Virus record (IMG/VR): IMGVR_UViG_3300048592_000125 | Span: 1 to 30,352 of that record | DNA length: 30,352 nucleotides | Strand: one strand, 5' to 3' | Origin: a virus | Part shown: piece after piece, positions 2,383 through 5,919 of the stretch | Position numbering within the stretch: the stretch's first letter is position 1 | Layout: the number at the start of each line of letters is the position of its first letter | Translations under genes and position numbers: made by a program | Notes under the pieces: model-generated | Databases searched by the model: none | The model's input: only the letters and a program-made list of their open reading frames with translations | Told to the model about the DNA's origin: nothing

Positions 2383-2833
2383 ACCCTCCATGCTCATGGA
2401 GATCGCTCACGTAGTCTCCAAGCGGAGTACGTGCTTCCGCCTCAATGTGGGAGCTGTGGTAGTCGTACAGAACCGCATCGTGAGCATAGGCTATAACGGT
2501 GCGCCTCCTGGCGCTCCGCACTGTACGGGCAACCTATGCCCTGGAAAGAATAGCTGTCACGAGACGATCCACGCGGAAGTCAACGCGCTGGACTACGTCC
2601 CGCCGTCACTGTGGGGCTCGATCAAGGACTTGTACGTCACGGACAGCCCGTGCCAGAATTGCCTCGAGTACGTTGGCTCTCGGTACGTCAGCCGCCTGTT
2701 CTTCGACCGGCTCTACCGCCACCATGATCACCTGCTCAAATACCCCCAGTTCTTCCCGGGCGGCATTTATCAGGTGACTCCTTCGGGATACGTGATAGAC
2801 TGGCGAACGAAGGAGATCGTTGATGAGAAGTGA
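2369..2833 (+). CDS. Deoxycytidylate (dCMP) deaminase
   Basis: A 154-residue zinc enzyme that converts dCMP to dUMP, feeding thymidylate or modified-pyrimidine synthesis. The diagnostic motifs are present: GYNGAPPGAPHC (41-52, substrate binding), HAEVNAL (68-74, zinc ligand His68 and catalytic Glu70) and PCQNC (zinc ligands Cys95 and Cys98). Length is normal for the ComEB/T4 Cd family. The final part (about 125-154) is a phage-specific extension. The start at 2369 overlaps the preceding stop by 14 bases, and its own stop overlaps the polymerase start by 11 bases, so it belongs to the nucleotide-replication operon. Together with the two synthase-like genes it forms a pyrimidine cassette like that of T-even phages. 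Confidence 0.93.
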   Translation: MRISRPSMLMEIAHVVSKRSTCFRLNVGAVVVVQNRIVSIGYNGAPPGAPHCTGNLCPGKNSCHETIHAEVNALDYVPPSLWGSIKDLYVTDSPCQNCLEYVGSRYVSRLFFDRLYRHHDHLLKYPQFFPGGIYQVTPSGYVIDWRTKEIVDEK

Positions 2834-5672
2834 GGAGTGCAAGCTCTGTAAGCTTCACCAGACGTGCCAGACGGTCGGCCTCATGGGTACGGGGCCGACT
2901 CCCTGCGATATCATGATAGTGGGCGAAGCTCCCGGAAGGAGAGAGGATGAGGGAGGAGAGCCCTTCATCGGGAAGGCCGGTCAGCTGCTGACGGAGATCC
3001 TGGCATCCTACGGCATCAGTCGCAAGAGAGTCTACATCACTAACGCAGTCCACTGCCGCCCTCCTGACAATCGAACACCCACCAAAAGCGAGATCAAGAA
3101 GTGCAAGGCCTGGCTTGACTACGAGATCCAGAAGGTAAGGCCGAAGTTCGTCCTGCTCCTCGGAAACACGCCACTCATGTCGATCACCGGGTCTTCCGGC
3201 ATCAGCACTCGACGGGGCAGGCCATTCGAGCAGGACGGCATCATCTATCTGCCAACGTTTCACCCGGCATTCGCTCTGCGGGATCCTACTCAGACCCACT
3301 TTATAGAGAGCGACGTTCGGCTGCTATGCGAGATTGTGAAGGCGGGTGAGATACCTCGCGAGGAGAAGCTCAGGCCTAACCTTGTCAGGACCACAGCTGA
3401 CTTCAAGAGGATGCTAGCCGCTCTTCGCGGCATCGTGTCCTTCGACATTGAGACCACGTGCCTCTACCCCTGGCAGAAGACTGAGCTCAAGACCGTAGCC
3501 GGCAAGCCCACCTACGTTGATGCTCCGGCCAAGATCACGATGATCGGCTTCGGCACAAGCGTCGGCGAGTTCTCTCTACCCCTTCATCATCTGGAGTCTC
3601 CCTTCAGCGAGGAGGCTATCGACCAGATGATCCACGAGATAGACCGCACCCTCGAGGAGTATGAGGTCGAGCTCGCGGTCCACAATGGCAAGTTCGATGG
3701 CCTGTGGATGTGGGTTCACTACGCAGTGAAGTGGTATCAGCGGATGGTCTTCGACACGATGCTGGCTCACTACGCCCTAGACGAGAATAGTCGTCATGGG
3801 CTGAAGGAGCTGGCCATGAAGTTCTGCGGTGCCCCCGACTGGGATATCGACAAAGACAAGAAGCGTGGCAACACTTCGCTGGAGAAGCTAGCGTTGTATC
3901 ACGCTCATGACCTGTACTATACGCTTGACCTAAGGCGCAAGTTCCGCAAGATGCTGTTGAAGGACCCGGAGAGCCATCAGGTCTTCATGAAGATACTCAT
4001 GCCCTGCGCCAGGATGTTCACTGAGATCGAGTACAGTGGCATCTACATCGACCACACGAAATTCGACGAGGCTGAGGAAGTCCTCCGCAAGCTAAAGGAC
4101 GAGGCTGAGCAGGAGCTCAAGCAGTGGGGCGATATCAACTGGGGTTCGACTGCTCAGCTTAGCGATCTGCTCTACAACCAGCTGAAAATCCCTGTGGTCG
4201 AGAAGACCAAGACTGGGGCGCCGTCGTGCAGCGAGTCTGCGCTCAACCAGATAGACCACCCATGCGTCGGGGCGCTGATCAGGTATCGTGGGGCCAAGCA
4301 GCAGCTGTCGTTCTTCATTGATGGCTGGAAGCCCTTCATTCACTGGAGGCGCATCAAGGGCGAGAAGCACGCCTTCCTTCACCCGTCGTTCAAGCTGCAC
4401 GGCACCGTGACCGGTCGGCTGTCCTGCGAGCACCCCAACCTTCAGCAAGTTCCCCGGGATCCTCGCATCCGGACGTTGATCACTGCCCCGCCAGGCTGGA
4501 CACTGATCGAGTGCGACCTTAGCCAGATCGAGCTACGTGTGGCTGCTGAGCTAGCCAACGAGCGAACACTCTTGCAGGTCTTCTATAATGACGGAGACCC
4601 ACACTGGACTACGGTTATCCGCTCTCTAGAACGAGGGGCGGGTGGTGAGTACCTGGAGGTAATGAATGAAACCGCGGCAATGTTTCTTGTGTCAATCGGC
4701 CTACCTCCCGACGGGACCGGCGCAAAAATACTGCTTGACCTGTGGCGAGCAGCGAAAGAGAGAGTTGGTGCGGCGCAACTCCTACAATCATGCTATAAGG
4801 AGTGGTCGAATAAAGAGTCCAGGTTGCGGCAGCGGTGGCAATCAGAGGAACAGCTTAAATCCCTACTGGAAAGGGGGTGGCCCGATCTGGGCGAGAAAGT
4901 TCAGGGGAACGTGCTGCGAGCGCTGCGGGTCTACTTCGAACACCTGTCTTCATCACAAGAACGGAAACAGGAAAAACAACCACGTATCCAATTTGGAGAC
5001 GTTGTGTCGATCCTGTCATGCCTCGGAGCATCAGTTGCAGAAGAATTTCGCAAGGAGTGGAAAGAGCTGAGGAAGAAAGCAAAGGCTGAGAACTTCGGGT
5101 TTTTATACGGAATGTGGTGGAAGAAGTTTCTCGTCTACGCTCGGGATAACTATGGAGTCAATCTGACAGAAACGCAAGCCCAAGAAAGTCGAGAGTCCTT
5201 CTTTGCCTTGTACGTAGACCTTCCTCAGTGGCACAACAAGCAGCGGCACTTCGCCCGTCGCAACGGCTACGTTCGGTCGCTGTCTGGCCGGAAGCGTCGG
5301 CTGCCCAACGCGATGCTGATGGAGGACACGCCACAGAGGAGGGAGGCCGAGCGTCAGGCGATCAACTCGCCTGTGCAGTCATTCGCCAACGATATCAACC
5401 TAATGTCGGCTATTCAGCTTCGAAAGGAGTATGGACTAGACAAGGTTCGTATTGTCGGCACTGTCCATGACGCCATCCTAGCGATGGTCAAGGATGAGTA
5501 CCTGCCCGAAGTCATGCGTCGACTGCTGACCATCATGACGAGGCCCAAGCTCTTCGACGACTTTGACATTCAGCTCAAGGTCCCAGTCCTCGCGGACGGC
5601 AAGGTCGGACCCTGGGGCGCTGGAATTTCACTAGAGAAGTGGGAGAAAGCCAATGCTGTTCAAAGTAAATGA
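2823..5672 (+). CDS. Family-4 uracil-DNA glycosylase fused to family A DNA polymerase, with an inserted segment
   Basis: A 949-residue replicative polymerase. Residues 1-190 are a family-4 uracil-DNA glycosylase (SPO1 polymerase-related) domain: Fe-S cysteines in ECKLC plus HCRPP and KKCK, active-site GEAPG followed by EPFIGKAG, and FHPAF. A 3'-5' proofreading exonuclease follows: DIE (Asp208/Glu210), N288-x3-D292, and Y359-x3-D363. The polymerase domain has TGRL, motif A DLSQIELR (Asp565), motif B Arg750/Lys754/Phe758/Tyr762-Gly763 and motif C HDA (His882, Asp883), so catalytic residues look intact. In E. coli Pol I, motif A Asp to motif B Arg is 49 residues; here it is 185. The excess of about 136 residues coincides with an HNH gene in another frame. 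ATG 2823 is preferred over TTG 2820, with AAGGAG upstream. Whether the long product is active as such, or the insert is removed, cannot be told from sequence. Confidence 0.9.
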   Translation: MRSEECKLCKLHQTCQTVGLMGTGPTPCDIMIVGEAPGRREDEGGEPFIGKAGQLLTEILASYGISRKRVYITNAVHCRPPDNRTPTKSEIKKCKAWLDYEIQKVRPKFVLLLGNTPLMSITGSSGISTRRGRPFEQDGIIYLPTFHPAFALRDPTQTHFIESDVRLLCEIVKAGEIPREEKLRPNLVRTTADFKRMLAALRGIVSFDIETTCLYPWQKTELKTVAGKPTYVDAPAKITMIGFGTSVGEFSLPLHHLESPFSEEAIDQMIHEIDRTLEEYEVELAVHNGKFDGLWMWVHYAVKWYQRMVFDTMLAHYALDENSRHGLKELAMKFCGAPDWDIDKDKKRGNTSLEKLALYHAHDLYYTLDLRRKFRKMLLKDPESHQVFMKILMPCARMFTEIEYSGIYIDHTKFDEAEEVLRKLKDEAEQELKQWGDINWGSTAQLSDLLYNQLKIPVVEKTKTGAPSCSESALNQIDHPCVGALIRYRGAKQQLSFFIDGWKPFIHWRRIKGEKHAFLHPSFKLHGTVTGRLSCEHPNLQQVPRDPRIRTLITAPPGWTLIECDLSQIELRVAAELANERTLLQVFYNDGDPHWTTVIRSLERGAGGEYLEVMNETAAMFLVSIGLPPDGTGAKILLDLWRAAKERVGAAQLLQSCYKEWSNKESRLRQRWQSEEQLKSLLERGWPDLGEKVQGNVLRALRVYFEHLSSSQERKQEKQPRIQFGDVVSILSCLGASVAEEFRKEWKELRKKAKAENFGFLYGMWWKKFLVYARDNYGVNLTETQAQESRESFFALYVDLPQWHNKQRHFARRNGYVRSLSGRKRRLPNAMLMEDTPQRREAERQAINSPVQSFANDINLMSAIQLRKEYGLDKVRIVGTVHDAILAMVKDEYLPEVMRRLLTIMTRPKLFDDFDIQLKVPVLADGKVGPWGAGISLEKWEKANAVQSK
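4666..5070 (+). CDS. HNH homing endonuclease overprinted in the polymerase gene
   Basis: A 134-residue protein in the +1 frame relative to the polymerase that surrounds it. It starts at ATG 4666, 5 bases after a strong Shine-Dalgarno sequence (GGAGGT, 4655-4660). The N-terminal CFLC and YCLTC pairs (Cys6, 9, 23, 26) form a likely zinc finger. NPYWKGG (65-71) resembles a DNA-contact motif of phage homing endonucleases. The C-terminal half is a classical HNH nuclease: CERC (84-87), LHHKNGNRKNN (95-105), then NLETLCRSCHASEH (109-122). Its last dozen codons and stop run into conserved polymerase sequence. Such enzymes cut a cognate site in gene copies lacking the insertion and so spread themselves. 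This stretch is more A-rich than its surroundings, supporting recent insertion. Confidence 0.85.
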   Translation: MKPRQCFLCQSAYLPTGPAQKYCLTCGEQRKRELVRRNSYNHAIRSGRIKSPGCGSGGNQRNSLNPYWKGGGPIWARKFRGTCCERCGSTSNTCLHHKNGNRKNNHVSNLETLCRSCHASEHQLQKNFARSGKS

Positions 5673-5919
5673 TCCCGTGATGAAGGTGGGAGGAGACTAC
5701 CAGATCCGAGGCGTTGTGGTAGCTCGCTTCAATCTGTACGAGGGCCTGCCGCACGAGCCGGCTGCTCGCTACGTCGTTCGTCACGAGGCGGCGGGAGGAG
5801 GTTACTTCCTGCACGTCTACTCGGAGAAGAACCTGGCTCACGCCGAAGAGCCGACGATCTATGCTGACGCCAGGATGGCTGACGGCACCTGGCTACCGGG
5901 AGCGTTCGATGAGACTTGA
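5653..5919 (+). CDS. Unknown small protein, possible SH3-like fold
   Basis: An 88-residue protein not assigned to a named family. It begins MLFKVNDPVMKVGGDY, continues with alternating hydrophobic stretches (IRGVVVARF, ARYVVRHE, YFLHVYSEKNL) and ends in TWLPGAFDET. The pattern of short beta strands after KVGG resembles small SH3-like proteins seen beside polymerase genes in phages. It overlaps the polymerase stop by 20 bases and has GGGAG about 8 bases upstream of its ATG inside the polymerase gene, so it is translationally linked. There is no membrane segment or signal peptide. Function unknown. Confidence 0.65.
   Translation: MLFKVNDPVMKVGGDYQIRGVVVARFNLYEGLPHEPAARYVVRHEAAGGGYFLHVYSEKNLAHAEEPTIYADARMADGTWLPGAFDET

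Follow-up and report, generated by a model that had tools for sequence, protein, structure and literature searches.

An intact HNH endonuclease gene nested out of frame within an open phage DNA polymerase gene

A predicted HNH endonuclease gene is nested out of frame within a family A DNA polymerase gene of a virus (IMG/VR record IMGVR_UViG_3300048592_000125), with no stop in the polymerase frame over the whole of the nested gene. Judged from sequence comparison, the locus looks like a real and unusual case of intronless homing endonuclease insertion, in an architecture that is apparently recurrent.

Results

The window is the whole stretch of viral DNA that was analyzed, 30,352 nucleotides in length. 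The host gene (2823..5672, plus strand) encodes a family-4 uracil-DNA glycosylase domain, a 3′-5′ exonuclease, and a family A DNA polymerase (PolA). The ORF reading of the window gives an ATG start at 2823, an alternative TTG at 2820, and no stop up to 5672, so the first-pass annotation was right that the frame is open across the HNH gene. The glycosylase domain (2829–3340) opens the polymerase, and its fusion to exonuclease and PolA is common to many relatives. Motif A (DLSQIELR) lies at 4515..4538, motif B (RKKAKAENFGFLYG) at 5070..5111, and motif C (TVHDAIL) at 5460..5480, all on the plus strand. Every catalytic motif, motif C included, and the flanking protein sequence are intact. The closest relative (L001) shares 79% protein identity and, over the flanks, ~80% DNA identity.

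The nested gene (4666..5070, plus strand) has 134 codons and a stop, and is in the +1 frame relative to the polymerase. Its Shine-Dalgarno sequence, GGAGG (4655..4659, plus strand), lies inside polymerase codons six bases 5′ of the ATG. The locus thus holds an endonuclease gene with its own Shine-Dalgarno sequence and ATG (4655–4668) in a conserved gene whose relatives are without the insert, and both frames are open and intact over the overlap. The earlier description of a complete HNH gene with a strong ribosome-binding site in the +1 frame of the polymerase was confirmed for both ORF and GGAGG. A frameshift fusion of HNH to polymerase was ruled out by two HNH-frame stops, TAA TGA, immediately 5′ of the ATG.

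Family alignment placed an N-terminal CxxC...CxxC zinc-ribbon part at 4681..4743 and the HNH nuclease core (C84, C87, H96, H97, N109, C114, C117, H118, and H122) at 4915..5031, both on the plus strand. All 13 residues that are invariant among 17 family members are kept, namely C6, C9, C23, C26, and the nine of the core. The protein is 29–44% identical to 16 relatives over its full length and matches PHROG 25862 (E 9e-11, residues 5–131, N-terminal zinc ribbon included). It scored under the cut-off of Pfam HNH models, and Foldseek with a model of the HNH protein and a PDB sequence search gave weak matches only, some of them to other HNH nucleases. By its sequence, the nested ORF is an HNH endonuclease of the intron-type family PHROG 25862, with predicted nuclease activity.

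Motifs A and B are 189 codons apart in the window, between anchors chosen in this analysis. The spacing is 91–110 in 44 distinct long-type relatives (92 in L001) and 51–60 in more distant branches. The first-pass annotation had counted 185 residues, from Asp565 to Arg750; the unusual length stands, and the exact figure differs with the anchors. It had named as counter-evidence a segment of equal length in relatives that have no HNH gene. No such segment was seen in the ~70 related viral polymerases whose spacing could be measured, the longest being 110. Its yardstick, the 49 residues that separate the two motifs in E. coli Pol I, was wrong for a gene with long-type phage relatives, and the near-equality of a ~136-codon excess with the length of the HNH gene came from that yardstick. 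Measured against L001, the net gain is ~97 codons, with ~132 inserted and ~33–35 ancestral codons replaced. In the long-type polymerases of L001–L051 the motif A–B spacing exceeds that of a typical PolA (~53) by ~40–55 residues.

Alignment to HNH-less relatives, proposed earlier for finding exact borders, placed the 3′ edge at 5050 and left the 5′ edge uncertain by ~20 nt. At the 3′ border, DNA similarity to L001 restarts at 5051, right after the codon for F128 (5047–5049), where conservation of the HNH family ends in the family alignment. At the 5′ border, codon-by-codon similarity to L001 declines near 4650, at the ribosome-binding site of the HNH gene. These borders point to a cassette of ~132 codons that replaced ~33–35 polymerase codons, and also indicate that the final six HNH codons and stop derive from polymerase DNA in another frame. 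The putative foreign cassette spans 4653..5050 (plus strand, 5′ edge uncertain by ~20 nt each way) and stands in place of L001 ~4408–4507. It corresponds to the foreign loop that had been suggested earlier for the motif A–B region beside the fingers, with ~97 net residues. The same insert was not found in the other related viral polymerases searched, and no HNH remnant was seen in the +1 frame of polymerase relatives, which has stops throughout. No repeats or inverted repeats were found at the cassette borders.

At least 11 full-length relatives of the HNH protein are encoded in what appear to be group I introns interrupting PolA genes at motif B. They lie between two PolA parts in phages 4HA13, BSBP01, KEN_02, and Av-05 and in contigs including L087, L089, L090, L091, L092, L102, and L105. 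In these loci PolA is broken at motif B, and in most of them group I-like signatures flank the ORF, with GAGCCAAG upstream and ATAGTC downstream. The HNH stop in the window is ~30 nt, and the cassette edge ~50 nt, upstream of the point that matches the introns of relatives. A peptide pattern search confirmed no close HNH relatives in viral contigs, and a genome-contig scan for HNH gave mainly short, weak matches.

The Rfam group I intron model RF00028 was unmatched in 4000–5800 up to E 5. This silence supports the absence of an intron and is weak alone, because Rfam also missed the HNH-bearing gaps in KEN_02 (L083), where it found an intron in the neighboring gap, and in 4HA13. Lack of space is the stronger argument: the cassette is almost wholly HNH coding sequence and a ribozyme has no room. 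On both grounds a group I intron, already called unlikely in the first-pass annotation, was rejected for the window. An intein was rejected too, since Pfam and NCBIfam scans found no splicing domain in the window polymerase and the HNH gene is out of frame; the same libraries do detect intein domains in L122, L352, and L221. Translational bypassing has a precedent in T4 gene 60. It was rejected here because ribosomes would meet no stop in the polymerase frame and the borders have no repeats.

The possibility that the segment is nonetheless removed, as a very compact unrecognized intron or through bypassing by ribosomes, was the other branch of the first-pass annotation and is the weaker one. 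It would leave ~53–57 residues between motifs A and B, and more distant PolA relatives have a spacing of 53. Removal is favored by the fact that HNH relatives occupy motif-B group I introns in this type of gene, and by the failure of Rfam on the HNH-bearing introns of those relatives. However, nothing in an open frame needs removal or bypass, the match to Rfam was lacking even at a permissive threshold, and excision would delete a segment present in all 44 distinct long-type relatives and discard polymerase-like sequence in the overlapping frame. Removal is therefore quite unlikely.

The odds of an open polymerase frame were computed with the HNH protein fixed and synonymous codons redrawn by phage usage or uniformly. 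The frame was open with a probability of 0.0047–0.0063 under phage codon usage and ≤0.0002 when synonymous codons were uniform, and none of 20,000 draws left the third frame open. The first-pass annotation gave ~0.002 under uniform base use; given the HNH protein, the figure under phage usage is somewhat higher. Correct register at both sides of the cassette would add a chance factor of about three. In the surveyed HNH relatives the equivalent frame contains stops, apart from the nested cases treated further on.

Polymerase-likeness was scored with a profile of the motif A–B region from 44 relatives, against recodings of 4666–5037 with native flanks and open frames only. The polymerase frame of the window scored 107.0 bits, a value reached by 0.1% of open recodings under phage usage and 0.7% under uniform codons. 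The signal is located in 4948–5037, above the HNH core (p 0.003–0.004). With shorter resampled segments and uniform codons the figure climbs to 2–6%. In a same-register control, 15 HNH relatives joined to the native polymerase tail scored 31.5–37.4 bits and the tail alone 32.8, compared with 47.1 for the window. The polymerase-like bias of the overlap (p ~0.001–0.003 under phage codon usage, weaker under uniform codons) is suggestive, not decisive. Codon-usage likelihood did not distinguish the two frames within the insert.

AlphaFold2 with 41 relatives modeled the polymerase core with confidence (mean pLDDT 86) and insert residues ~645–716 with low confidence. Helices were placed at 722–740, in the dual-coded part, a placement that the alignment may have steered. 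The recoding test, the control with relatives, and the model together outline an apparent dual-coding stretch (4947..5049, plus strand) in which the HNH core overlaps polymerase-like helix sequence. This is evidence that the polymerase may be read through the insert, with a distal part that has been fitted, or happens to fit, to the pre-motif-B helix of relatives. The window is a single sequence and no ortholog with the insert was found, which weakens the case for selection on the polymerase frame. The earlier suggestion that the frame may be maintained gains support from the open-frame odds and the polymerase-like overlap.

Among 135 distinct HNH-motif ORFs in the fetched loci, about a dozen rows, near-identical contigs included, were nested in a longer frame that is open on both sides. 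Nearly all have the frame relation of the window (+1 to the host). One set lies in C5 cytosine methyltransferases (L284:851-1309, L288:3001-3459, L289:3004-3462, L303:2803-3261, L309:2803-3261, and L356:3001-3453), and the hosts of L288 and L289 match PF00145. In L284, L288, L289, L303, and L309 the C-terminal sequence of the methyltransferase restarts immediately after the HNH gene. A relative of these HNH genes lies under gp45 of the sequenced isolate Staphylococcus phage CUB-EPI_14, which is annotated as a methyltransferase only. Pairwise identity in the methyltransferase cases is 64–78% in the HNH frame and 39–65% in the host frame. Third-position differences at conserved residues are 0.28–0.53 in the HNH overlap versus 0.41–0.72 in the adjacent single-coding methyltransferase tail, which is a short flank. 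Slower third-position change in the overlap is the pattern expected under joint constraint, and these values are consistent with it within the limits of so short a flank.

The other set lies in genes for the terminase large subunit with an intein, where the HNH gene is out of frame inside the intein (L122:2884-5433, HNH 3509–4444; L352:1965-4454, HNH 2509–3468). L131 and L132 are near-identical to L122. The host-frame segment in these inteins is presumably removed by protein splicing. In L121, a different HNH gene (3782–4273) lies out of frame near the C terminus of a methyltransferase-like frame of 575 codons. In the polymerase of L221 (1420–4809), a relative of that in the window, an HNH intein lies in frame immediately upstream of motif A and is flanked by TGRTSC and CEHPN.

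The recurrence of the layout in methyltransferases with conserved host frames bears on the reading that the polymerase is crippled or decaying, with a recent HNH landing, a frame open by luck, a meaningless overlap, and replication by another polymerase. The chance of an open frame (0.005) is small and yet non-negligible for a case that was picked by a reader, and the poorly modeled residues of the insert would also fit decay. The open frame might also be a survivorship effect in a polymerase with damage of other kinds. Such decay is unlikely nevertheless, given the intact catalytic motifs and flanks, the 79% identity to L001, and an overlap that is polymerase-like above expectation. An assembly chimera or sequencing artefact could be suspected in a metagenomic contig whose insert has no second copy among the sequences found. 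It is highly improbable: both joins are in frame without a stop, the gene is otherwise intact, and the architecture is present in unrelated contigs and in the isolate CUB-EPI_14.

Discussion

The features of the locus are probably best explained by an intron-type homing endonuclease gene that was inserted without its intron, with the polymerase read through and carrying an extra segment in the fingers. An HNH gene from the family of motif-B group I introns would have entered the polymerase gene as a reading frame alone, ~30–50 nt upstream of the intron site of relatives, and would have replaced most of a length-variable fingers segment (~33–35 codons). The invader would persist since the host frame is uninterrupted, with the polymerase gaining a net ~97 residues. 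The endonuclease would be made from its own ribosome-binding site within the polymerase message. The enzyme would cut, near motif B, polymerase alleles that lack the insert, and would spread by recombination through flanking homology. We infer the translation and activity of both proteins, tolerance of the insert by the polymerase, cleavage, and homing.

Intruding endonuclease genes in essential genes survive by splicing, as introns or inteins, or by splitting of the host into subunits. The window suggests a third route, in which one stretch of DNA is shared by two frames. Such sharing could be an intermediate stage linking bare endonuclease genes to mobile introns at a single target, motif B of PolA, and would exemplify dual coding over a long stretch in a large DNA phage. 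Chances are about even that overprinting is a repeatable lifestyle of HNH homing endonuclease genes, which would sit +1 in conserved phage genes (PolA, cytosine methyltransferase, and terminase inteins) with the host frame open, need no intron or in-frame intein, and evolve under joint constraint. The locus also draws attention to nuclease genes that are overlooked in annotation since they lie inside annotated genes, such as gp45 of CUB-EPI_14. An incomplete literature search found no paper describing the overprinting of an open host frame by an HNH gene.

Several known systems share features with the window. I-HmuI (SPO1), I-BasI (Bastille), and I-PfoP3I (Pf-WMP3) are HNH endonucleases encoded by group I introns within genes for phage DNA polymerases (PMC11878797, PMC3428280), and the window likewise has an HNH nuclease gene inside the gene for such a polymerase. 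The relatives in 4HA13 and KEN_02 are full-length homologs of the window HNH protein and are found at motif B. Unlike these and other intron-borne HNH genes of the I-HmuI type, the window gene is without an intron, its ORF lies ~30 nt upstream of the site of relatives, and its host frame is open. Free-standing homing endonucleases in phage genes include mobE in nrdA (Aeh1), mobA in gene 60 (T4), and seg43 at gene 43 (phage 25) (PMC2988022). Like them, the window endonuclease gene is bare and lies inside an essential phage gene with no intron; their hosts are split into separate polypeptides (PMC2988022), whereas the host frame of the window is uninterrupted. HNH inteins, such as the in-frame intein of L221, share with the window a nuclease coding sequence in an uninterrupted host frame. 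In contrast to them, the window polymerase has no match to a splicing domain and its HNH gene is out of frame. The HNH genes in methyltransferases and terminase inteins found here are also +1 in an open, otherwise conserved host gene, although their host genes are others and their HNH proteins belong to different subfamilies.
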